64,000 nucleotides of DNA from Bryobacterales bacterium (lineage in GTDB: Bacteria; Acidobacteriota; Terriglobia; Bryobacterales; Bryobacteraceae). Positions within the stretch are counted from its first letter, which is position 1, and each line of letters opens with the position of its first letter. The stretch spans positions 124,001-188,000 of the forward strand of contig PMOK01000284.1 in NCBI GenBank assembly GCA_003162425.1. Reading direction: 5' to 3'. The notes beneath the pieces are model-generated. The model did not search any database and was not told the origin of the DNA. It worked only from the letters and a program-made list of their open reading frames with translations. The position numbers and the translations under genes are program-made. Of the stretch, positions 15,615 to 34,796 are shown piece by piece.

Positions 15615-17120
15615 TCAAGGGCGCGCAGCCGCGCTTGCCACGTTGTCCGTCACCAACTGTGCCTTAGCTGCTTCCACCAGCCGGGTCACTTCGGCTATCA
15701 GTTCCTCGCGCCGCCTGTGCTCCTTCTCGTATGTCTCGGCCGCGTCGCGCAGATTCGAGCCGCAGTGCGGGCACGTCGTCTCATGGGGCCAGATGTATTG
15801 GTTACACGCGCGGCAGATATCCAGGGCGGGTGGGATGCGTCCATCGCGAGTCAACGGCGCGCCGCGAGACCGGCGGGTCAACTGCACCAAATCGTTTCGA
15901 GCCGGAGTGCGGCGGACCACTTCAGCAGGTCCCGCTCCATCGCCGGGAATCTGCTCCGCGATGAGCTCAAATTCGCCGACGCCGAACGACGCGGGCGAGG
16001 CTTCGCGCCGTTTCACAATCCGTTCGCGCAGCCCCTGCTTCCGGAGTTCGAGTACGCGGTAGTGGCAATACGGATTGTTGCCGGGGCGGCCCAGTAGCGA
16101 ATGCGAAGTCCAGGTGCAGCCGCCGCGGCAGACATCGGCGTAGTAGCAATCGCGGCAGAAGCCCCACAGGTCATTAACATCGCGGAGCCGTCCAAAATGG
16201 ATTTCGGGACTCGTCGCCCAGATTTGGTCCAGGCTCATGTCCCGCACGTTGCCTCCGGAGAAGCCGTTGGTGGCAAGCGATGGGCATCCCTTGACAGTGC
16301 CGTCCGCCTCGAGTGCCAGCACGGTGTGTCCGGCGCTGCAGCCAGTCCAATGCACGCGCTCGTCGCCTAGGCCTCGCCACAAATGTTCGTAGGGTCCGAA
16401 GTAACCAATGTTGTTGCCCACCACCATCAACAGCCCCCGTTCGACACCTTCGGAATAAAGGCGCGCGAGCAACGGCATAAACTCGGCGAGTTGATAGGGC
16501 TGCAACAGCAGATGGTCATTGTCCGCGGCATTTCCCATGGCGACGGTAAGCTGAATCTGCCAATGCGTGGCGCCGACATCGATTATCGTGTTCATCAACT
16601 CCGGCAGATGCGGCATTGTCTCAGAACCGATCTGCGTGTTGACGCTGATCCTCAACCCGGCAGCCTTAGCGCGACGCAGCGTATCCAGCGCACGGGCGAA
16701 GGAGCCGGGCACACCACGAACGCGGTCATGCAGCGCTTCCATGCCGTCCAGCGAGACTCCGATTCCCTGCAGTCCCGCGTCCACAGCAGCCGCTAGACGC
16801 TTGGGAGTGAGGTTCCGGCCGCCGGTCTGGATGGCGCAATACATCCCGTGGGACCGTATGGCGCGGACGATCTGGGTCCAGTCTGAACGCAGGTAGGCTT
16901 CGCCGCCGATCAGCGAGACCTCGCGGGTGCCTAGGCGCGCAAGATGCTCCACAACATCGAGGCATTCGGCGGTGGAGAGCTCGTTCGGCCGGCGGCGTCC
17001 CGCACGCGACCCACAATGCAGGCATTTCAGGTCACAGGCTAGCGTAATTTCCCACACGACGTGCACCGGAACGAAATTCCGATAGTCGTTTTCAACGCGG
17101 ATACGCGCGGGTTTCGGCAC
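15615..17120 (-). CDS. Radical SAM/SPASM RiPP maturase, Y_X(10)_GDL type, with C-terminal zinc-ribbon
   Basis: CDLKCLHC; SPASM-like CSAGH...GCPS...FCRDCYYADVCRGGCTW; C-terminal CRACNQYIWPHETTCPHCGS; adjacent to four Y-x(10)-GD[L/V/I] peptides. Confidence 0.92.
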   Translation of the reverse strand: MPKPARIRVENDYRNFVPVHVVWEITLACDLKCLHCGSRAGRRRPNELSTAECLDVVEHLARLGTREVSLIGGEAYLRSDWTQIVRAIRSHGMYCAIQTGGRNLTPKRLAAAVDAGLQGIGVSLDGMEALHDRVRGVPGSFARALDTLRRAKAAGLRISVNTQIGSETMPHLPELMNTIIDVGATHWQIQLTVAMGNAADNDHLLLQPYQLAEFMPLLARLYSEGVERGLLMVVGNNIGYFGPYEHLWRGLGDERVHWTGCSAGHTVLALEADGTVKGCPSLATNGFSGGNVRDMSLDQIWATSPEIHFGRLRDVNDLWGFCRDCYYADVCRGGCTWTSHSLLGRPGNNPYCHYRVLELRKQGLRERIVKRREASPASFGVGEFELIAEQIPGDGAGPAEVVRRTPARNDLVQLTRRSRGAPLTRDGRIPPALDICRACNQYIWPHETTCPHCGSNLRDAAETYEKEHRRREELIAEVTRLVEAAKAQLVTDNVASAAARP

Positions 17121-17127
17121 GCCGTTC

Positions 17128-17322
17128 CTACTTCTTATGCTCGGCTTTGGCTATCTCAATTTTAAGGGCTTGCAAAGCGGCGGGAAGGTCGCCAGCCTGT
17201 TGCAAGTACTGCTCCGCTTCCTGGGCGACTTGTTTCATGCGATTGATATCGCCGGAGCAGATCGCATCATGGATAGTCACTCCGTAGAGCGGGATTGGAT
17301 GGTGTTTTTCTTTTTCAGCCAT
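17128..17322 (-). CDS. DUF1843-type Y-x(10)-GD peptide 4 (64 aa, divergent)
   Basis: MAEKEKHHPIPLYGVTIHDAICSGDINRMKQVAQEAEQYLQQAGDLPAALQALKIEIAKAEHKK. Confidence 0.9.
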   Translation of the reverse strand: MAEKEKHHPIPLYGVTIHDAICSGDINRMKQVAQEAEQYLQQAGDLPAALQALKIEIAKAEHKK

Positions 17323-17337
17323 GTTTACAATCTCCTT

Positions 17338-17535
17338 CTATTTCTTGCTCTTGTGTTCATGCTTGGCGATCTCGATTTTCAGGTATTCGAGAGCGGCCCC
17401 CACATCCCCGGCCTGCTGCAAGTGCTGTTCGGCCTCGGCGGCGAGTTGCTTCATCTTGGCCAGGTCGCCCTTTGCGATGGCTTCCTGGATTGGCGGCCCG
17501 TACGGAGGCACGGGGCCCCGGTCTGATTGCGCCAT
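17338..17535 (-). CDS. DUF1843-type Y-x(10)-GDL peptide 3 (65 aa)
   Basis: MAQSDRGPVPPYGPPIQEAIAKGDLAKMKQLAAEAEQHLQQAGDVGAALEYLKIEIAKHEHKSKK. Confidence 0.92.
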   Translation of the reverse strand: MAQSDRGPVPPYGPPIQEAIAKGDLAKMKQLAAEAEQHLQQAGDVGAALEYLKIEIAKHEHKSKK

Positions 17536-17550
17536 AAAAATCCCTCCTTT

Positions 17551-17742
17551 TTACTGTTTGCGCGAAAGCTTTGCGATTTCGATTTTCAAGTACTCGAGCG
17601 CGGCCCGCACATCGCCAACCTGCGCGAGGTGCTTCTCGGCTGCGGCTTCGAGCTGCTTCATCCGCGCCACATCGCCCTTCGCGATAGCTTCCTGGATAGG
17701 CGGTCCGTAAGGAACAATGGACGCTGGTTCTTTTTCCGCCAT
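17551..17742 (-). CDS. DUF1843-type Y-x(10)-GD peptide 2 (63 aa)
   Basis: MAEKEPASIVPYGPPIQEAIAKGDVARMKQLEAAAEKHLAQVGDVRAALEYLKIEIAKLSRKQ; internal ATG chosen by alignment to paralogs. Confidence 0.9.
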   Translation of the reverse strand: MAEKEPASIVPYGPPIQEAIAKGDVARMKQLEAAAEKHLAQVGDVRAALEYLKIEIAKLSRKQ

Positions 17743-17785
17743 AAGTCCTTCCTTGCTACCCGGGTTTCCACCCGGACTTATCAAC

Positions 17786-17968
17786 TCAATGAGGTTTGGT
17801 GGTTCGCGAAGCTTTCGCGATTTCGATCTTTAAATACTCAAGGGCCGCCCGCACGTCACCCGCTTGCTTGAGGTGTTCCTCGGCTTCCGCAGCAAGCTGC
17901 TTCATGCGCGGCAAATCCCCTTTTGCAATCGCCTCCTGGATGGGAGGACCGTAGAGTACAACAGCCAT
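17786..17968 (-). CDS. DUF1843-type Y-x(10)-GDL peptide 1 (60 aa)
   Basis: MAVVLYGPPIQEAIAKGDLPRMKQLAAEAEEHLKQAGDVRAALEYLKIEIAKASRTTKPH; internal ATG chosen by alignment to paralogs. Confidence 0.9.
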   Translation of the reverse strand: MAVVLYGPPIQEAIAKGDLPRMKQLAAEAEEHLKQAGDVRAALEYLKIEIAKASRTTKPH

Positions 17969-18058
17969 AGGTTTTAATTTATAACCGGTTTCTCGCAACA
18001 TGTCAAATCAATTCTTGATAACACGGCGACAATGTTAGGGCATTAACAACCAGCCAGT

Positions 18059-18914: not shown

Positions 18915-20834
18915 ATGAAACCCGTGGCACTGATCAGCATGCCGACGCTTTCCGCGCGGTTCCCCTCTTTCCAGTTAGCCCTGCTGAAACCAACCCTGGA
19001 ACGGGCCGGGATTCCGGCGCAGACCTTTTCGCTCTTTATGTATTTTGGGACACGCATCGGCTGGAAGATCAACGAGGCGATTGCGGACGTGTGGCCCAGC
19101 ATGGTTGGTGAATGGATCTGGACGAAAGCCGCGTTCGGAGCGGAAATAGAAGCGCGCGATGAGGAGTATTTTGGCGCCTACGATTACATTTTCCGCGCGA
19201 TCTGCAAGCGCGCCGGGTGTACAACCAGGCGGTTTCAGAAAATTCGCGACAAAGATGCGCCTGAGTTCATCGATTTCTGCGTCGACGCCGTGGACTGGAA
19301 GCGGTTCGGCCTGATCGGTTTCTCAGTTGTGTTTCAGCAGAGCCTGGCCAGCATCGCTCTGGCAAAAGCGCTGAAAAAACGATACCCGGAGATCCCGATC
19401 GTGTTCGGGGGCGCGAGCCTGGAAGACGACATCGCTGACGAGATCATGCGCGGATGCCCCGAGGTCGACTATCTGCATTGCGGCGATGGCGAGATCTCGT
19501 TTCCCGAGATGGTCCATCGTCTGGACCGTGGTGAATCGATGCAGGGCCTGCGCGGCGTCATGTGGCGCAACGGAGGCAAGATCGAATACGCCGGGCGCGC
19601 GCCGAACTTTCAGGCGATGAATGAGACACCGATCCCGCAGTTTGACGAGTATTTTTACGCGCGCGAAGAAGGGGGTTATGAGGACTGGGATGAGGCCTGC
19701 GAGCCTATGCTCCCTATCGAATCGGCGCGCGGCTGCTGGTGGGGCGAAAAGCATCACTGCACCTTTTGCGGGCTGAACCGTTCCGGCATGGAGTTTCGCG
19801 CCAAGGACCCCGAGCGTGTCATTGAACAGATCGAGCACCTGTCGCGCAAACATGGCATCTACAGTTTCAACGCCATCGACAACATCATGGCGCCGGAGTA
19901 CACCGAAAAGCTTTTCCGGCGGCTCGCGGAGTCGAACACCGATGTGGAGTTGCACTACGAGATCCGCCCGAACTTCTCGCGCACGCAGCTAGGGCGAATG
20001 CGCAAGGGCGGCCTCACTTCGGTGCAGCCTGGCGTCGAAAGCCTGTCAACGAACATTCTGAAGAGTATGCGCAAGATGACGACGGGCATGCGGAATGTCG
20101 AACTCATTAAGTGGTGCACCTATCACGACATCAGTTGCATGTACAACATCCTGATGCGATTCCCGGGCGAGACCGTGGAAGATTACCGGATGCAGGCCGA
20201 ACTGGCGCCGAAGATCGTGCATTTGCAGCCGCCCTGGGGCATCGTGAAGGCTCGAGCCGACCGCGGCTCGCCGATGTATACGGATCCGGCATCGCAGTCC
20301 ATCCGGCGGCTCAAACCGGCCGTTTGCTACAACTACCTTTTCCCGAAGAAGTTCAATCTCGAACGAGTGTCATACTACTTCGATCACGAAATGGACAACG
20401 TGGTGGACGAGGAACATTACGACGACTTGCTGGAAGCCGTTGCGAAGTGGCAGGCCAGTTGGACGGAGCGCGGGCACCCCTACCTGCGCTATCGCAAGGC
20501 GTTGACCAGCATCACTATTGAAGACGGGCGGCGGCGCAAGCAGCGTAAATATCAGTACGCCGACGGCCCGGCGCTGTTGTATGAGTATTGCGCGGACGCT
20601 CGAACGCCTCGCGACATCGCGTCGGCCATGGGGACTGATCCATGGGTGCAGCAGGCCCTGGACGACTTCATCCGAAAAGATCTCATCCTATTCCTGGATG
20701 GCCGCTATTTAAGCCTCGCGCTTCCAGCCAATCCGAACTTCGAGATGTCCGTTGGTCCTCAAGCCGCGGCCCTACCGCAACAACGCCCCAGCGACGGTTT
20801 TGTGCCCGCGATCGAACTGGTCACGGTGAGATGA
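18915..20834 (+). CDS. RiPP maturation radical SAM C-methyltransferase (B12-binding type)
   Basis: ESARGCWWGEKHHCTFCGLNRSGMEFRAKDPERV (C-x7-C-x2-C variant typical of this family); N-terminal cobalamin-binding-like FGGASLEDDIADEIMRGCPEVDYLHCGDGE. Confidence 0.92.
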   Translation: MKPVALISMPTLSARFPSFQLALLKPTLERAGIPAQTFSLFMYFGTRIGWKINEAIADVWPSMVGEWIWTKAAFGAEIEARDEEYFGAYDYIFRAICKRAGCTTRRFQKIRDKDAPEFIDFCVDAVDWKRFGLIGFSVVFQQSLASIALAKALKKRYPEIPIVFGGASLEDDIADEIMRGCPEVDYLHCGDGEISFPEMVHRLDRGESMQGLRGVMWRNGGKIEYAGRAPNFQAMNETPIPQFDEYFYAREEGGYEDWDEACEPMLPIESARGCWWGEKHHCTFCGLNRSGMEFRAKDPERVIEQIEHLSRKHGIYSFNAIDNIMAPEYTEKLFRRLAESNTDVELHYEIRPNFSRTQLGRMRKGGLTSVQPGVESLSTNILKSMRKMTTGMRNVELIKWCTYHDISCMYNILMRFPGETVEDYRMQAELAPKIVHLQPPWGIVKARADRGSPMYTDPASQSIRRLKPAVCYNYLFPKKFNLERVSYYFDHEMDNVVDEEHYDDLLEAVAKWQASWTERGHPYLRYRKALTSITIEDGRRRKQRKYQYADGPALLYEYCADARTPRDIASAMGTDPWVQQALDDFIRKDLILFLDGRYLSLALPANPNFEMSVGPQAAALPQQRPSDGFVPAIELVTVR

Positions 20835-23677
20835 GGGCCTCGACGGCTGTCTCCGCCAAACAGCAAACCGAACGCGAAGAACTGCTTGGGCTATTGCTCG
20901 AGCGCGGAATTCTGCAGCGCTCGGAAACGCAGCCCGTACTTTCACGCGACGGCTCATCAGCGCGCTGGATGCTGGATTCGCTCGCGGTGACGCTGACTCC
21001 GCGCGGTGCTGAGCTTGCTGGGCGGATGGTCCTGGAGCAATTGCAGAGATTCGACGGGCGACAATTGGCGGCGTACGGGCTGACCGCCGTTCCCATCCTG
21101 CAATCGGCTGTGCTGCAGTCCAGCGGCCGCTATAAGGGATTGCTAGTCCGTAGCGAACGCAAGCCGCACGGATCGCAAAAGTTGATCGAAGGCCAATTCG
21201 ATCCGGACGAGCCCGTGATCCTGATCGAGGATTCGATAGCGTCGGGGATGAGCGCGCGGGAGGGCGTTCAGAAGCTGGAGGAAGCAGGCCTGCGCGTGGA
21301 GGGATGCGTCGCGTTGGTCCGCTTCGGTTGGGAAGGCGGCTGTTCAGATTTCGCGGAACGCGGCTACCACGTGGAAGCGATCTACGACATCTTTGAAGAC
21401 TTGATGTCTCGCATGGAAAGTGAAAAGGGACCGGATTATAACCCTACCAAATGGTTTCCCGAATTTAGCTGGGGTGCACGCCGCGCGCCCGAGGGACTGC
21501 ATCCGGCACACCTGGCGCGCGAGGTCCTGCGTGAATACTTTACCAGCGGTGAATGGCTGGCGCCGCCGCGCTCGCTCGATCGGGATGACTACGATTCCCA
21601 TGGTGGCGCGTGGGTGAGCATCCGTTCGCGCGAGGACATCCATGATCGGCACGCGCGCGACGGCTTTTGGCATTTTCCGAATGAGAGGTCATGGGGCGTT
21701 GCCGAAGATGTTGTTCGCGCTGCTGTACGAACGGCTCGCGAACTGCCAAAGGGATCCGACGCGCTGAAGTTGATCGAATCGAGCTACGTCGCGGTGACTT
21801 TCTTTTCCGCCCTCGAAGCGGCGACGGTGGGAGAGCTGGACAACAATCGTTACGGGATTGTGGTGGTGAGTGGCGAACGGCCCGAGATCATGGGCGGCGC
21901 ATTACCTCGGATGCCGGGGGTTCGCGATGAATGGCAGCAGTTCCATCATGCCCGAATCAACAATGCGCAACTCTACGAGTACGAGCCTTACGTTATCTAT
22001 CGGCACGCGGTGTCGAAGTTCGTCGAGCCCGGCGCACCTTGGCAATCGAGCGGCGTTCCTGGCTCTGACGAGTCGCCGGACCTGGGAGCGCTCGCAAGGC
22101 ACGCGCGAGATCTGGTCCTGGGCCGCGAGCGGCGCGAACCGCTCCCGCAGATAACGCTGACGGAAACGGTGAAGCAGCTATTCGTCACTATTTATGTGGA
22201 TGGCGAGCCCTGCGGCTGCATGGGCTCCGGAATCGGTGACTTGGAGAACGATCTGCGTACGCTGACGAAAGCCGCGCTTCAAGATGAGCGGTTCGAGCAC
22301 CCGGAGATCGACGAAGACGCGAGCGTAGCGGTGAGTGTTTCGCTGCTCTCCAATGAACTAGAGATGGGTGACTTCTCGCCCGAAGAGGTGCGGAGCAAGT
22401 ATCGGCACGGCCAACAGGCTCTCATGGTGGAACAGAACCCGCGGTCCGGCATGCTTCTGCCGTTCATGACGTCGTGGCTCAGCCTGGACGCGGAGGGCTT
22501 TGTTGACGAAGTGCTCGACAAAGCCGGCGTCACCCGAGCTCCCTATAACTGGATCCGCTTCGATTGCGATACGTGGCTGGCCGATGAAGACGGCGTTGGA
22601 AAACTGGAGGGTGGTTTCAATCGTCTAACTCCGACGTTGCAGGCGGACGAGATTGCGCGGCTGCACGTCGACTATCTGCTTCGCAACCAGCGTGAGGACG
22701 GGGCGCTATACTTCGGCTATTACGTTTTCGAAAACATGTTGTATCAAGGGATCGACATGACGCGGCTGGCGCACGGCGCCTGGACTCTGGCGCGCGCCGG
22801 AAAGTCTGATGCCGCCGCATCCGCTCTGAAGCACATCCTTGGTCACGCTGACGACCCGGTGACGGGCCTCGCCCGCGATGCTTTTTTGCTTCTGACGCTG
22901 TGTGAGCCGGGCATGCAAGAGATGGTTAGCCGGTCGAAGCTTGCAGAAAAGTTATGGGCGTCGATCGACCGGCACGGGCGGGTCACAACGTGGGTTCCCG
23001 CGGCTCCAAGTGAAGATGACGACACCGGCGATGAGAGCGCTTCCGAAGAGGTGTCGCCTGAAGATCTTCAGAATTATGTGCCGGGTCAGGTTTTGCTCGC
23101 CTTGGCAGCGGCGGTGCGGACGGGTGCGACGGACGCGGACGAACGGAAGATCGAAAGCGCGTTCCGTTATTACCGTCACCGGTTCCGGTACAAGCGCGAT
23201 TTCGGCCAGGTTTCGTGGATGTCGCTCGCGGCGGCGGCATGGTGGCGCCTGAGGGAGCGGCGCGAGTTCGCCGATTTCCTTTTCGAGATTACCGACTTTA
23301 TCCTGACGTTCCAGCAGACTCACCCCGAGCAGGCGACACCAGGCGCGTTCCTGACTGGCCAACAGCCCGACCCGCCGGGATTCACCACGGCGGTTTATCT
23401 GGAGGCGGTGGCGTCTGCGCTCGACGTCGCGTCCGCGCTCTCAGACACAGCTAGGGAACACCGGTACGATGATGCGTGGCGGCTTGGTTTCACTTTCCTC
23501 GGCCGGCTAATCATTCAGGATCGCGATTCATCGATTCTGCCGAACGCCGAGTACGCGGTGGGTGGGCTCCGGGAAAACCTCTACAGCGGCCACGTCCGTA
23601 TCGACTTTGTTCAGCATTCCCTCGCCGCGATCATGGAGCGGCATCCAGATGTTTTCGTAAACAATCAGACAGATTAG
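20831..23677 (+). CDS. Multidomain fusion: phosphoribosyltransferase-like + AMMECR1-like + C-terminal helical-repeat domain
   Basis: ATGA overlap with upstream gene; PRPP-loop-like VILIEDSIASGMSAREG; AMMECR1-like TVYVDGEPCGCMGSGIGDL...DERFEHPEIDED region; C-terminal DYLLRNQREDGALYFGYYV...RLAHGAWTLARAG repeats. Confidence 0.8.
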   Translation: MRASTAVSAKQQTEREELLGLLLERGILQRSETQPVLSRDGSSARWMLDSLAVTLTPRGAELAGRMVLEQLQRFDGRQLAAYGLTAVPILQSAVLQSSGRYKGLLVRSERKPHGSQKLIEGQFDPDEPVILIEDSIASGMSAREGVQKLEEAGLRVEGCVALVRFGWEGGCSDFAERGYHVEAIYDIFEDLMSRMESEKGPDYNPTKWFPEFSWGARRAPEGLHPAHLAREVLREYFTSGEWLAPPRSLDRDDYDSHGGAWVSIRSREDIHDRHARDGFWHFPNERSWGVAEDVVRAAVRTARELPKGSDALKLIESSYVAVTFFSALEAATVGELDNNRYGIVVVSGERPEIMGGALPRMPGVRDEWQQFHHARINNAQLYEYEPYVIYRHAVSKFVEPGAPWQSSGVPGSDESPDLGALARHARDLVLGRERREPLPQITLTETVKQLFVTIYVDGEPCGCMGSGIGDLENDLRTLTKAALQDERFEHPEIDEDASVAVSVSLLSNELEMGDFSPEEVRSKYRHGQQALMVEQNPRSGMLLPFMTSWLSLDAEGFVDEVLDKAGVTRAPYNWIRFDCDTWLADEDGVGKLEGGFNRLTPTLQADEIARLHVDYLLRNQREDGALYFGYYVFENMLYQGIDMTRLAHGAWTLARAGKSDAAASALKHILGHADDPVTGLARDAFLLLTLCEPGMQEMVSRSKLAEKLWASIDRHGRVTTWVPAAPSEDDDTGDESASEEVSPEDLQNYVPGQVLLALAAAVRTGATDADERKIESAFRYYRHRFRYKRDFGQVSWMSLAAAAWWRLRERREFADFLFEITDFILTFQQTHPEQATPGAFLTGQQPDPPGFTTAVYLEAVASALDVASALSDTAREHRYDDAWRLGFTFLGRLIIQDRDSSILPNAEYAVGGLRENLYSGHVRIDFVQHSLAAIMERHPDVFVNNQTD

Positions 23678-23687
23678 GAGAATCAGA

Positions 23688-24119
23688 ATGGCAGCTAAGA
23701 AACGACCAACGAAAAAGCGAAAGAAGCCAGGCGTGATAGTAGAAGTTGCGCCACCTAGAAAGAAGAAGCCGTACGGGCCGGTTGTAGAGGTCGCGCCCGG
23801 TAAGAGGCCGAAGGGCCGGCCGATCGTCGAGGTCGCACCGCCGAGGAAGGGCAAGAAGAAGGCGGGGTCGCGAGTCACTGAAGTGGCTCCAATGACGAGG
23901 CGAAAGCGGCCGGCCAGCGGAGTGATCGTGGAAGTGGCTCCGGAAATCGCACCCGATATCGCGAGGAAGTCGCGCGGAGTGATCAAGGAGATGGCGCCGG
24001 CATTGAAGAGGAGATCGGCGGGGACAATCAAGGAGATTGCGCCTGCGACGAAGAGAAAGGGGAATTCGAGACCAGGCGTGATCGTGGAAGTTGCGCCGCC
24101 AGTGGACAAGAAACAGTAG
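23688..24119 (+). CDS. Lys/Arg-rich protein with eight [V/I]-x-E-[V/I/M]-A-P repeats; candidate multi-core RiPP precursor
   Basis: GVIVEVAPP / GPVVEVAPG / PIVEVAPP / SRVTEVAPM / GVIVEVAPE / GVIKEMAPA / GTIKEIAPA / GVIVEVAPP separated by basic linkers; AGGAG RBS; starts 10 bp after the fusion gene. Confidence 0.85.
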   Translation: MAAKKRPTKKRKKPGVIVEVAPPRKKKPYGPVVEVAPGKRPKGRPIVEVAPPRKGKKKAGSRVTEVAPMTRRKRPASGVIVEVAPEIAPDIARKSRGVIKEMAPALKRRSAGTIKEIAPATKRKGNSRPGVIVEVAPPVDKKQ

Positions 24120-24181: not shown

Positions 24182-24721
24182 ATGGGGCAGATCGCAACCG
24201 TGCTTCTTTTTGCCGTTATGGCAGGAGCCGACAACTTCCAGGTTGCCTGCGGTCTTGGCATGTTGCCCCTGGGACGCGCAAGGAGGTGGGCGCTCGGCGC
24301 ATCGTTCGGGATTTGCGAGGCATTCATGTCGCTGGCCGGCCTTCTGGCGGGGTCATATTTGCGCATCCATGTTTTTGGCGCTGCGTCGCTGGCCGGTACG
24401 ATCACGCTACTCGCAAGTGGATTTTTGATCATCTATCTCGCGTTGAACGATCGGGACATGGAGGAACTAGCCAACAACAAATGGGTGATATTTGGTCTGC
24501 CGCTTTCGCTGAGCCTCGATAATCTGGCCGCCGGCGCTGGCCTCGGCGCCAACGGCTATCCCGTAATATTGTGTGCCGCAGTCATTGGATTGATTTGTAC
24601 TGCGATGAGCCTGGCTGGTCTATTCCTAGGTGAACGAGTTCGCCGCCTGCTGCCGCGACGCGCCGGCGCGCTGGCCGGGGCTTGGCTGGTCCTGATGGCG
24701 GTGCATTCCCTCCTCAAGTGA
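24182..24721 (+). CDS. MntP-like (putative manganese efflux) membrane protein
   Basis: MGQIATVLLFAVMAGADNFQVACGLGMLPL...LPLSLSLDNLAAGAGLG duplicated membrane repeats. Confidence 0.75.
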   Translation: MGQIATVLLFAVMAGADNFQVACGLGMLPLGRARRWALGASFGICEAFMSLAGLLAGSYLRIHVFGAASLAGTITLLASGFLIIYLALNDRDMEELANNKWVIFGLPLSLSLDNLAAGAGLGANGYPVILCAAVIGLICTAMSLAGLFLGERVRRLLPRRAGALAGAWLVLMAVHSLLK

Positions 24722-29003: not shown

Positions 29004-29471
29004 TCAACTCGACGTCCTCTCGGTCAGATTAGCTAGCGACGCGGACGCGCCCTGGAGGCGATCCAATTCCGCGCCCGCGATTTCACGATCGTCGGCGAAT
29101 GCCGCCCCGACCACCGCAATGATCGCCCCGTATTGATCGCGCACTGGAATTGCGACCGCGGCTCGCGCGTCCACCGCCTTGGCGCCCGGCTTTACGGCTC
29201 CCGTGCGATCCTCCTGCAGATTACAGGTCTGAACAGGCTCTCCGCGCTCCAGCGCGAGACCGGCCATTCCTTTCCCCGAGGGTACCCACGCCACAATCTC
29301 CCGTACTTTCTCGGGAATGTTTTGGGAGGCTGCCAGCACCAAGCCTCCCTTCTGGTGAAAGTGAACCGTGCCTGCAACGGCGCCGGCTTCACGGAGAAAC
29401 GCTGCCAGCCAGGATTGCGCTGCTTCGTTGATTTGTGCCATGGCTCCCGGCCTATGTTGCGCGTTAAACAT
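29004..29471 (-). CDS. GAF-domain protein
   Basis: VAWVPSGKGMAGLALERGEPVQTCNLQ...AVAIPVRDQYGAIIAVVGAAFAD. Confidence 0.75.
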   Translation of the reverse strand: MFNAQHRPGAMAQINEAAQSWLAAFLREAGAVAGTVHFHQKGGLVLAASQNIPEKVREIVAWVPSGKGMAGLALERGEPVQTCNLQEDRTGAVKPGAKAVDARAAVAIPVRDQYGAIIAVVGAAFADDREIAGAELDRLQGASASLANLTERTSS

Positions 29472-32400
29472 CCCAAGGTGGGGGAACGCGAATAATGATG
29501 GTACGCACCTCGCCGTGCCGCTTCGGTTCCCGAACCACGGTCACCCAGCTCCGCTCCTCCAACGCGTTGCCGGCAATCTCCAGCACACGCTTTTCACGGC
29601 TGTGGAAGCGCTCCAGCTCGCCGAGCCGTGTTTCAAGAATGAAGCCTTCGAAATCTCCGAAATGATCGAAGACCAAGCCGTTGACCTTTCCTGTCACCTC
29701 GTGGTGTTCGTGGCGGTGCTTGTCAACCAGGCACACTTCCGCAGGAGCAGTTATGGCGCCAGTGGGCGACGGCAGAATGTCGACGGGGTTTCCGCCGTAA
29801 TGTAAGACGCGGATCGCCAACTGTTCGATATAGCGCTGCATTACGGGATACCAGCGGTTTTGCGGCAGAACATTCTGAGCGATCCAGCGGAACAGCGCAA
29901 GCCGGTGTTCTTCCGGCGCCAGCAGTTCCTGCTTAATGTGGATCCTCAGGTTGATCTGGAAAGCGCCGAGAACGCGCCTCCATGTCAGGATTTTGAGCCT
30001 GGATCGCTCCTTACGCGAGGGGGGCCCGGCGACGGGGACGTTTAGGCCGGCTTCGTTCGGTTGACCGCGCCCCACCACCTGGTTGGCGTCGGTCAACTGA
30101 CGCACTACGATGGTGTAAAGGTCCCCGTCCTGAATACCAGGCGGAAGGTCCACCGTCAGCAAGCCGGCCAGGAATCCAGTGTTCAACGGGATGGGAACAA
30201 ATGTTACGGGGCCAGTCGGGGTTGTTATGGTGTTCTGATCCTGAATGGTCAGCGTGTGATACGAGTATAAGCGGTCGGCAAGAGCGAGGATCTCAGCCGC
30301 GGTTACTCCCGGAAGATAAATGGATGCTGAACTGCCCGCCGGCGTGTTACCCCAGGTGATCATCAATTCGTCGACATCTTTGGTGGTCGCACTGCTCGCT
30401 TTAATCTGGAAGGGATGCGGCATGCGGCGGGAACCGGGCGCGCCCGGATTGGGTCCGTCGATATAGGCGAGATTGCGCTGCGCCAGCTTATCCGAAGAGG
30501 AGCTGTCGGCGTTGGGCGGAATGGGCACATCGTCAAAGGCGATCTCAGCGATCAGGCACTGGTGCGGCGCCTTGGTGAAGGCTGCGTTGATGGACTGGGT
30601 GATAAAGCCGGGGGTATTGAAATAGCCGGTCTTGTTGTCGAAATCACCGGCCTTGACAGATTGCGGGAAGAGCGCGGTGGGCTGGTTCATGTCGAGCCAA
30701 CAGCCGTAATAGGTATCGATTTCCTTCCCAGTGACCGGCGAGATGGTCTGCACATTCGGCGTATCAGGGAGCTGCTTGGTGAGGTCGGCCGGGCCGGCGA
30801 AATTCACCCGCTCGACGGCGAAGAACGGGATGGTGACGATCTCGTTCATTCCCAGGGCGTCATTCTGGACGCCCAGCAGCGGGACCCGCGGAGTAACGTC
30901 GGGCGTGCCGATGGGGGTTGAGCGATATGTGGTGCTGGTATCGAAGGTCGAGACGGTGTTCTGCGCCTGGAAGGCGCGGAAGAAGACGCGGCAATTCTGT
31001 GCTTGCGTAGTGAACGGCGGGGGTGGGGGAGGCGTGGTGCCCTGGATACGCACGCGGCAGATCGCGAAATTGTAGGCGGGCTTTTTGCTACGAGGATTAA
31101 TGGTCAAGTATTCAAGCTCATCGCCCGTCGCATCTTCGGCCTCGGTCAGGCTGGTATCGAAACTGTCCGTGCCGGCCGCGCCACTCGGGGTGATCCGTTT
31201 AATCAGATCGGCGATGTACGCCGTCGCGGCGGCGGATGCCTGAGCCGGCGACGGGGGATTGGTTGTTCCGGGCGGGTAGAAGTCGCTGACCGTCTTGTCG
31301 AAGAACTTCTTGTCGTCATCTACGCTGAATACTCGCAGGTCGGTGCTCAGCCAGGTTGTGTAATTGTTGCCCGCATCAGAGTCGGTGACATAAGGATTCG
31401 CGGCCTTCGTCAATACCAGCGGGGCGGAGGCACTGTAGGGCTTGCCGTTGACGGTAATATTCGCGGTCAGCGTTAAATTCTCGGTCTCATCAATGAAACC
31501 GTCGGTGCCCGTGAATTGAATATTAAACGGATATAGAATGCGCTGTGGCGCATTGGGCGGCGGCACGGTGGTGGTGAATACCGGACCGCTAAACGGCTGG
31601 ATGTGCAGTTGCCCCATGGTCTGCAGATAGTTGATGATCGCGGCCTGATTCGCGTTCGTGGGGTCGACCGAGAATGTGACGATCGGTGGGTTCGTAGGAC
31701 TGGTGAGATTGTCGCTCGAATCAATACCGAGTTCAGACGGAAAGAACCCCTCCATAACCACCCAGAAGGCGGTTGGGAAGTTGGCCGGCAAACCCATCGA
31801 TGTCAGCTCGTTCTTGCCGAAGGTGCTGTTCTGGATCTGCAGAGAGCAGGTCTTCGCCAGCTGCGCGGCCGGGTTGACTTTCAGGCTCCCATAGACGATG
31901 CCGTCGAGCTCGTCGGTGTGGAATGTGTGCAGCTTGTTGTAGTAGGCGAAAGCGGTGTAGCCTTCGAAGAAGGCCATGACGCTGGACGTGTTGGGTTGGA
32001 ACGTAATGCTGTCATTAACCTGCCCGTTCTCATACTCCTCCTGGCTCTCCCAAGCGCTCTGGTAGGATGCGGGCCTACCGCCCGTGCCCCCGCCGAAGGA
32101 GGGCGGCGTCAACGTTGCCGCCGACAGGGCCTGTATCCGTCGAACCAGGTTGCGGCCCTCCGCCGAACCTGTCAGCGGCACGATGGCGCCGGCGGCAGTC
32201 AGGGTTGGTTTGTCGGCTGCGGGCAGCGCGGCGTAGTCATTCTGGAGTTGAGTTTGGCGCGCCGAACTGAAGGTGTTGAAGTCAGTGACGCCGGTGGTGG
32301 TGGGGATGGGTGAATCTGAATCGTCGGACCAACCGGTGTACCCAGTCGACCTGGGGCGTTGATCTTTGGTAGGGTCCGGGTCTTCTATGGCGGGCTTTCC

Positions 32401-33237
32401 GGAGAAGAAGCCGTCGATATGGAACTCGAACAGAGCCATTGGCTCAAAGGTGGCTCCGTTTATTTGGAACTCTTTCGGCATCGGATCCGGCGGACTGTTC
32501 GCTTCCCAATTTTGGGCGAGGTAGGTGTTCGGCCCCACATTTACCGTCGCGCCAATCACGGGATCGCCGGCCGTGAAATAGACCGCGGCGGCGGTGCTGA
32601 GCGTGCCACGGATGCCGTTGACCGTGGTAACAACGGGCGCCGCGTGGGAGCGGAGGGCGACGGGGCTATTGAAGCGAAGCACCCTGCCGACCCCCGTCTT
32701 ATCGATCGTCGTGGGAACGCTCAAGGGAACGCCATGCGCATCCACGCCTGAGGGCGTGAACGGAGGCTCGCCCTCAAGCCAAAAGGTGTTACCGGGACCC
32801 TGCGAACCGAACCCGAGGGGATTGGTCCCATCGTTCAGTGCGCCCCAAGTGCCCTTTGGATCGTTGTACCAGTCATTGTCCGTCGCAAAGCGGACCTCAA
32901 ACCGGCCCGAGAACCAGATCTCCGGGTTGCTGATCGCTGTTAACGTAAATGAAGTGGTAGTGGCGCCGACATGAACATTGATCACCGTGTCGCCCTGCGC
33001 TGCGCTCACGGCTGTCGCAAAGATCGGGATCGTCATGCCGGCCGGGCTGATGCTGATGGTGCCGCCGGGTAAAGTCACGCCGGCCCCGTTCGGAGTGGCG
33101 TCGATGGTGGCGCTTTGCGTGCTGCCGTCGTTGGTGCTTAGGTTTAGCGGGACCGAGAATGTGATGCCGTTGTCCGGCGCGATTAGAAAACCATCGCCTG
33201 CGCTACTTCCATTGACGCTAATGACGATATTGCTCAT
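29464..33237 (-). CDS. Large hypothetical protein (1257 aa)
   Basis: Long ORF with Ig-like N-terminus; overlaps GAF gene; no family recognised. Confidence 0.8.
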   Translation of the reverse strand: MSNIVISVNGSSAGDGFLIAPDNGITFSVPLNLSTNDGSTQSATIDATPNGAGVTLPGGTISISPAGMTIPIFATAVSAAQGDTVINVHVGATTTSFTLTAISNPEIWFSGRFEVRFATDNDWYNDPKGTWGALNDGTNPLGFGSQGPGNTFWLEGEPPFTPSGVDAHGVPLSVPTTIDKTGVGRVLRFNSPVALRSHAAPVVTTVNGIRGTLSTAAAVYFTAGDPVIGATVNVGPNTYLAQNWEANSPPDPMPKEFQINGATFEPMALFEFHIDGFFSGKPAIEDPDPTKDQRPRSTGYTGWSDDSDSPIPTTTGVTDFNTFSSARQTQLQNDYAALPAADKPTLTAAGAIVPLTGSAEGRNLVRRIQALSAATLTPPSFGGGTGGRPASYQSAWESQEEYENGQVNDSITFQPNTSSVMAFFEGYTAFAYYNKLHTFHTDELDGIVYGSLKVNPAAQLAKTCSLQIQNSTFGKNELTSMGLPANFPTAFWVVMEGFFPSELGIDSSDNLTSPTNPPIVTFSVDPTNANQAAIINYLQTMGQLHIQPFSGPVFTTTVPPPNAPQRILYPFNIQFTGTDGFIDETENLTLTANITVNGKPYSASAPLVLTKAANPYVTDSDAGNNYTTWLSTDLRVFSVDDDKKFFDKTVSDFYPPGTTNPPSPAQASAAATAYIADLIKRITPSGAAGTDSFDTSLTEAEDATGDELEYLTINPRSKKPAYNFAICRVRIQGTTPPPPPPFTTQAQNCRVFFRAFQAQNTVSTFDTSTTYRSTPIGTPDVTPRVPLLGVQNDALGMNEIVTIPFFAVERVNFAGPADLTKQLPDTPNVQTISPVTGKEIDTYYGCWLDMNQPTALFPQSVKAGDFDNKTGYFNTPGFITQSINAAFTKAPHQCLIAEIAFDDVPIPPNADSSSSDKLAQRNLAYIDGPNPGAPGSRRMPHPFQIKASSATTKDVDELMITWGNTPAGSSASIYLPGVTAAEILALADRLYSYHTLTIQDQNTITTPTGPVTFVPIPLNTGFLAGLLTVDLPPGIQDGDLYTIVVRQLTDANQVVGRGQPNEAGLNVPVAGPPSRKERSRLKILTWRRVLGAFQINLRIHIKQELLAPEEHRLALFRWIAQNVLPQNRWYPVMQRYIEQLAIRVLHYGGNPVDILPSPTGAITAPAEVCLVDKHRHEHHEVTGKVNGLVFDHFGDFEGFILETRLGELERFHSREKRVLEIAGNALEERSWVTVVREPKRHGEVRTIIIRVPPPWDV

Positions 33238-33607: not shown

Positions 33608-33766
33608 ATGAGCTACCTCAATTCAATCCGACTCCATTTTGCCGGCCAGTTTCAAGCGGCTCCCTCCACGGTGAATAACGATCCGTTGCACTTCGACAAC
33701 GCTACTTTCCAGCCGTCCTATCAACAACCCGCTACCGGGAATCAACCAAATCAGTTAAGTGGCTGA
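33608..33766 (+). pseudogene. Short N-terminal remnant resembling proteins found beside VioB-like ferritin genes
   Basis: MSYLNSIRLHFAGQFQAAPSTVNNDPLHFDNATFQPSYQQPATGNQPNQLSG* ; ends abruptly and overlaps the next start. Confidence 0.5.
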
Positions 33767-34796
33767 GCCAATGGTCCATTTAAGAGCCGAATTATTTCAA
33801 GACCTGAACGGAACGGTGGAGGGCTTGCGGTGCGCGATGCAGAACGCGATCGAACTCGAACACGCCACCATCCCTCCGTATCTGTACGCCCTCTATTCGA
33901 TCAAGCCCGGCGCGAATGCCGAGATTGCCGGCCTCATCAAATCGATCGTCGTGGAAGAGATGCTGCACATGGCGCTCGATTGCAACATCCTGAACGCCAT
34001 TCGAGGGACGCCCAAGATCGACGATCCGAACTTTGTGCCCAAATATCCAGGACCGTTGCCGGGCGGCGTGGAAAGCGAATTGACCGTTGGACTTGCACCT
34101 TTCTCGAAGCAAGTGGTCAAGAACACGTTCATGGTGATTGAGGAGCCGGAAGATCCGCTGCACTTTCCGGTACTGAAACTGGCAGAGGGCGAGAAGCCAA
34201 CCACCATCGGCCAGTTCTATGCGGGTATCATCGACCAAATCCAGAAACTCGGTAACGGGATTTTCACCGGCGATCCAAAGAAGCAACTGACCACGGGCTT
34301 CGGCCCGCTGCAGACGATACACGTGCACGACGTCAAGTCCGCGATCGAAGCGATCAAGCTGATCGTGGCGCAGGGCGAGGGAACAACGACATCGCCGCTG
34401 GATCCGGAACATGATCCCGCGCACTACTATCGCTTCGCAGAAATCTATTACGGAAAGAAACTTATCCCCAACCCTGCTCCTCCACCGGACTTCGCGTATG
34501 GTGGCCACAACGTTTCTTTTGACCCCGCGGGAGTGTGGCCCGTCATCACGAATCCGAATCGAACCTCATACCCCGACGGATCGAAAGCCCGCAACCTGAA
34601 CGAGACTTTCAATTACACTTACACCAGCCTTTTGAAGTCCATGCAGCTCACGTTTGGCGGCCAGCCCGATCGATTGGGACCGGCCATCGGATTGATGGAG
34701 TCGATGAAAGAGCAGGCACTGGTGATGATGGCGACCGAAACAGTTCCGGGCCAGACTGCCGGACCATCCTTTGAATACACGCCGGTGAACGAGTAG
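33759..34796 (+). CDS. Ferritin-like domain protein (VioB/iminophenyl-pyruvate dimer synthase-type)
   Basis: MQNAIELEHATIPPYLYALYSI...IVVEEMLHMALDCNILNAI (ExxH diiron pattern). Confidence 0.85.
   Translation: MAEPMVHLRAELFQDLNGTVEGLRCAMQNAIELEHATIPPYLYALYSIKPGANAEIAGLIKSIVVEEMLHMALDCNILNAIRGTPKIDDPNFVPKYPGPLPGGVESELTVGLAPFSKQVVKNTFMVIEEPEDPLHFPVLKLAEGEKPTTIGQFYAGIIDQIQKLGNGIFTGDPKKQLTTGFGPLQTIHVHDVKSAIEAIKLIVAQGEGTTTSPLDPEHDPAHYYRFAEIYYGKKLIPNPAPPPDFAYGGHNVSFDPAGVWPVITNPNRTSYPDGSKARNLNETFNYTYTSLLKSMQLTFGGQPDRLGPAIGLMESMKEQALVMMATETVPGQTAGPSFEYTPVNE

Follow-up and report, generated by a model that had tools for sequence, protein, structure and literature searches.

An EVAP-repeat peptide gene recurs in Acidobacteriota beside a B12 radical SAM enzyme and an OPRT-AMMECR1 fusion protein

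We report a peptide-modification cassette that has apparently not been described before and whose multi-site substrate can be tested. It lies in the window (the whole 64,000-nucleotide stretch of Bryobacterales DNA that was analysed) and comprises genes for a peptide with repeated EVAP motifs, a B12-binding radical SAM enzyme and a fusion protein (Table 1). The EVAP peptide recurs beside the same two enzymes in distant soil bacteria and is therefore, very probably, what a new peptide-modifying system acts on. A RiPP-like reading is well supported, as the cassette has one hallmark of such systems, a short precursor gene conserved beside a peptide-modifying enzyme.

We propose that the EVAP protein is ribosomally made and leaderless, and that it serves as a multi-site substrate of the neighbouring radical SAM enzyme. 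This enzyme would act on one V/I-x-E-V-A-P motif after another, with the variable linkers as mere spacers, and the OPRT-AMMECR1-helical fusion would assist as an accessory or second enzyme. Judged from sequence comparison, this account is probable as a whole; that the EVAP motif is the modified site is a part of it in which we have good confidence.

Table 1. Features of the cassette and of the adjoining GDL-type genes in the window
Feature	Position	Strand	Details
GDL-motif peptide radical SAM/SPASM maturase (TIGR03913)	15615..17120	-	859 bits, cut-off 592
Tandem array of four DUF1843-type (GDL-motif) peptide genes, running divergently to the cassette	17128..18001	-	DUF1843 6.3e-20 for one
B12-binding radical SAM enzyme, TIGR03975 (rSAM_ocin_1), EVAP-associated clade	18915..20834	+	
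Cx7Cx2C cluster motif of the radical SAM enzyme	19734..19769	+	CWWGEKHHCTFC
Fusion protein: OPRT-like phosphoribosyltransferase, middle region, AMMECR1 domain, C-terminal all-helical region (low-confidence model)	20831..23677	+	
OPRT-like domain	20951..21382	+	RxERKxHG loop and PRPP-binding motif PVILIEDSIASG
AMMECR1 domain	22145..22546	+	GCMG signature
EVAP-repeat peptide, proposed substrate	23688..24119	+	143 aa, eight [VI]xE[VIM]AP motifs and a ninth degenerate EIAP

The EVAP-repeat peptide

The EVAP motif is repeated far beyond what composition alone yields. A first-pass annotation, made from the sequence alone, had described eight motif copies in the 143-aa ORF, and matching with [VI]xE[VILMA]AP recovers all eight, with glutamates at residues 19, 34, 48, 65, 82, 101, 116 and 134 as claimed; the degenerate ninth copy (Glu86) follows motif 5. 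When the residues of the peptide were shuffled 20,000 times, the maximum was two motifs, and 0/20,000 shufflings reached eight. Mean identity between motif copies is lower for nucleotides (0.67) than for amino acids (0.75), and third bases are equal at 46/126 identical residues. The motif is thus held at the peptide level, in agreement with the earlier view that the copies are kept by selection and are not recent DNA duplications. The start codon lies 10 bp downstream of the fusion stop, and the gene has its own RBS, as first described: an AGGAG that overlaps the fusion stop codon. AGGAG/GGAGG-type sites also lie 5' of the orthologous EVAP genes in loci L025, L087, L117 and L123.

The peptide falls into no family in Pfam or NCBIfam scans, and a comparison with PHROGs gave a single weak, unnamed match. 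A search of the open-access literature likewise gave no match for the core, in line with the first-pass annotation, which knew of no described RiPP family with it. General Pfam/NCBIfam scans gave no match to an RRE family, and the Pfam scan found no DUF1843 domain in the window EVAP protein. No leader is visible in the peptide, whose repeats start at residue 17, and no homologs of it were found in plasmids.

Judged by residue identity, the motif is under stronger constraint than the linkers. The alignment of orthologs that the first-pass annotation had called for finds the motif better kept: between the window and L025, from the same genus, identity is 39/48 residues in the motif and 54/88 in the linkers, and the motif persists in orthologs from other families. 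In the cross-locus motif table, the invariance of Glu and Pro arises partly by construction, since occurrences were gathered with an ExxP pattern; what is informative are the strong preferences for V/I before A-P and for V/I two residues before Glu.

Linker composition varies among orthologs. Linkers are basic in the window, L025 and L117 (K+R 24-28%), and acidic in L087 and L123 (D+E 20-22%, K+R 10-12%). The suggestion that repeated cores are generally released by cleavage at basic linkers thus loses its footing; no conserved protease, exporter or leader was seen at the loci compared. The shift from basic to acidic linkers, with the motif kept, also argues against a conserved histone-like role. 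A histone-H1-like basic nucleic-acid-binding protein had been offered as an alternative; such a protein, beside the radical SAM gene by chance, would suit the 28% K+R of the window protein. However, the acidic orthologs, the better conservation of the motif than of the linkers and the fusion gene that is always present alongside in the genomes searched make it very improbable.

The cassette in Acidobacteriota

The three-gene cassette (EVAP peptide, TIGR03975 enzyme and fusion) occurs in five acidobacterial genomes from four families, with a partial sixth. Full cassettes are found in the window, L025 (same genus, 10 motifs), L117 (genome G383), L123 (G270, 23 motifs) and L087 (G343), while in L132 (G623) an EVAP gene comes after a partial fusion gene. 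These comparisons cover Acidobacteriota only; all cassette loci are in draft assemblies, at least one of them a MAG, and the EVAP genes known number only six, two of them from one genus. The genes come in three orders: enzyme-fusion-peptide, peptide-enzyme-fusion and peptide-fusion-enzyme. In the window they are tightly packed on the same strand.

EVAP arrays are rare and keep company with the fusion. Triple-repeat arrays were found in 3/237 Bryobacteraceae genomes (G000, G003 and G623), all with a close fusion gene; G619, outside these three, carries a diverged fusion. The nominal hypergeometric chance of this co-occurrence is 1.8e-6, uncorrected for the shared ancestry of the genomes, which are not independent. 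Across 396 genomes of the phylum searched with a DNA pattern, 14 further loci inspected encoded low-complexity EAAP/ETAP proteins or had no repeated motifs, and among all pattern-matching loci a fusion or radical SAM gene was present only at cassette loci. A scan of genome contigs returned the same-genus relative only. A weak P0001-like match in G057 (L023) had no EVAP-repeat ORF among the frames listed. The first-pass annotation had named two kinds of sequence-level counter-evidence, orthologs in genomes without the radical SAM gene and linkers better conserved than the motif; on both points the outcome was favourable in the genomes searched.

Other genes flank individual cassettes. The manganese-pump-like gene at 24182-24721 has no counterpart at the matching position in L025 and is thus not part of the cassette. 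In G383, a 2OG-Fe(II) oxygenase gene (L117:8442-9005, minus strand) lies directly upstream of the EVAP gene and was not seen in the other cassettes. Upstream of the EVAP gene in L087, a gene on the plus strand (L087:3527-4657) belongs to the mandelate racemase/muconate lactonizing (enolase-type) family and may encode a dipeptide epimerase.

The radical SAM enzyme and the fusion protein

The radical SAM enzyme matches TIGR03975 over its full length (546.1 bits, cut-off 281.85; residues 4-603, model positions 1-606), a subfamily name that is not in itself proof of methylation. This score and the retention of the cassette across families bear out the earlier claim that the peptide belongs with a RiPP-type B12 radical SAM gene. 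Pfam places the Radical_SAM domain above and the B12-binding domain below its cut-off, and TokK is a PDB match (1.7e-8). With the TIGR03975 RiPP-maturation radical SAM C-methyltransferases the enzyme shares a full-length family match, B12-binding and radical SAM domains, and an adjoining partner peptide gene. Its Cx7Cx2C motif has the spacing found in the characterised enzymes PoyB/PoyC and the bottromycin methyltransferases (RMTs) (PMC5682303); the link to PoyC is this shared motif from the literature. The motif is general among the TIGR03975 loci compared and so speaks for the type of enzyme, without marking out the EVAP clade.

EVAP-linked enzymes are phylogenetically distinct from other TIGR03975 enzymes. 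In a tree with the latter, the five EVAP-linked enzymes form one separate clade with full support (100/100). The other four are 55-89% identical to the window enzyme, whereas identity to other TIGR03975 loci is at most 35%, and none of those loci compared has an EVAP gene. The leaderless EVAP repeat substrate and the constant OPRT-AMMECR1-helical partner further set the present system apart.

As the likeliest reaction we tentatively put forward methylation, at C-beta, of the Val/Ile beside Glu, on the model of PoyC, which methylates valine at that carbon (PMC5682303; review PMC11285071). C-C cross-linking of side chains is another reaction of a B12 radical SAM RiPP enzyme (PMC12257519). The poly-cyclopropylglycine RiPP TvgA/TvgB of Halomonas is similar in pairing a radical SAM enzyme with a repeated Val motif (TVGG) in one precursor, but its motif differs, and TvgB belongs to a subfamily screened for binding as many as three 4Fe-4S clusters instead of B12 (PMC9062424).

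The fusion protein joins two recognisable domains to two less tractable regions. The most likely start of its gene is ATG 20831, which overlaps the stop codon of the radical SAM gene (ATGA); this is a minor correction and leaves the 10-bp gap to the peptide gene unchanged. Profile matches (Pfam/NCBIfam) identify pyrE (2.1e-16) and AMMECR1 (6.3e-17), and OPRT and AMMECR1 structures were matched in the PDB. Every EVAP-type fusion has an intact OPRT loop and PRPP motif and retains the AMMECR1 GCMG signature. For the helical and middle regions, AlphaFold models made from the window and L025 sequences only are poor (pLDDT 43), and fold searches with them gave nothing significant. A GH76-like helical barrel was a weak top match for the helical region and is not claimed; a second, degenerate AMMECR1 domain in the middle region is unsupported by hhalign and Pfam. 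No fusion homologs were found in plasmids or viral contigs. To our knowledge, TvgA/TvgB has no OPRT-AMMECR1 partner.

The cassette shares an AMMECR1 domain and a radical SAM protein with the AmmeMemoRadiSam system (AMMECR1, Memo, radical SAM). However, no Memo gene is visible in the cassette, its radical SAM family differs, and its AMMECR1 domain is fused to OPRT and helical domains and scores below the TIGR04335 cut-off (63.7 bits against 99). Through the cassette, the little-understood AMMECR1 domain, which here shares a protein with a phosphoribosyltransferase whose motifs are intact, gains a defined peptide as candidate substrate, and AMMECR1 function becomes directly testable.

Related loci combine similar genes with other repeat peptides. 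L121:151-7913 and L122:1605-9500 hold an LQLGDE-type repeat protein, an AMMECR1-less OPRT-helical fusion and a TIGR03975-like enzyme with differently spaced first cluster cysteines (CWWDRSGSTGDPKRRCLFC). L131:1-6388 carries a diverged OPRT-AMMECR1 fusion, genes for SDR-like, TTL-like ATP-grasp and 2OG oxygenase proteins, and a truncated GGGPEPEPE-repeat ORF; no TIGR03975 gene is visible on this short contig. Since the fusion is found with EVAP, LQLGDE and GGGPEPEPE arrays, it seemingly goes with repeat peptides generally. Adjoining TIGR03975 genes at three further loci (L107:4606-6039, L109:7929-9218 and L110:4677-6038) are ORFs of 429-477 aa with 15-18 copies of a [DE]EVGRRxxP repeat. These ORFs are a second repeat-type candidate substrate, and their repeat also holds a Glu-Val pair.

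We infer about an even chance that the PRPP-binding motif of the fusion is used. A stronger proposal is that the fusion does the key chemistry, its OPRT domain moving phosphoribose from PRPP to Glu or another acceptor, with the radical SAM enzyme acting before or after. The intact RxERKxHG loop and PRPP motif of EVAP-type fusions are consistent with this, as are the PRPP motif of the fusion variants and of L131, the company that the fusion keeps with three kinds of array, and the strict retention of the motif Glu. However, that retention is partly a product of the ExxP pattern, and the OPRT domain could instead produce a small molecule or have a regulatory role. We also know of no RiPP pathway in which a PRTase acts on a peptide, and consider the proposal unlikely. 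Less likely again is its specific form, in which a PRPP-dependent OPRT-AMMECR1 enzyme would add ribose phosphate or a derived group to the Glu of every EVAP motif, in addition to C-methylation of the adjacent Val; the EVAP peptides would then form a new class of radical-SAM-matured repeat peptides.

Adjoining GDL-type genes and the fate of the product

The cassette adjoins a second radical SAM system of a different kind. GDL-type genes lie divergent beside the cassette in both the window and L025; their TIGR03913 maturase belongs to a different enzyme family from the EVAP radical SAM enzyme. In a list of 121 Bryobacteraceae genomes without G003 and G623, TIGR03913 scored above its cut-off in the window's own genome only, and this rarity makes chance adjacency to the cassette unlikely. 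In L132, the EVAP array itself carries a fused C-terminal DUF1843 domain (68 bits), and its gene is followed, in an apparent operon, by two further DUF1843-type genes and a GDL-type (TIGR03913-type) radical SAM/SPASM gene. Through this natural gene fusion, TIGR03975 and the GDL/DUF1843 trio, both orphan radical SAM systems, are connected. No GDL-type peptide genes were found by the EVAP arrays of L117, L087 and L123 in the stretches compared.

One alternative departs from our account in a single respect, what becomes of the product. The EVAP chain may stay an intact repeat polymer, modified at each motif and never cut, that serves as a scaffold, carrier, surface or binding polymer. The cassette gives no sign of cutting or export, and no protease or exporter is conserved in the neighbourhoods compared. 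Chains of 8 to 23 repeats with linkers that range from basic to acidic also fit such a polymer, as does the fusion to DUF1843, a family that occurs as repeated paralogs in operons and has been suggested to form part of larger self-assembling complexes (PMC10994174). However, the DUF1842-DUF1843 protein of the same study was probably monomeric (PMC10994174), TIGR03975-type maturases are associated with RiPP pathways, and processing genes may sit elsewhere in the genome. We regard the intact polymer as a real possibility, somewhat short of an even chance.

Further along the window, a 1257-aa ORF without a Pfam match lies at 29464-33237 (minus strand). In its C-terminal part it is similar, at 25% identity, to a protein encoded at L025:62-1063, which is also near GDL genes, and the ORF is followed by a ferritin-like (PF12902) gene at 33759-34796.
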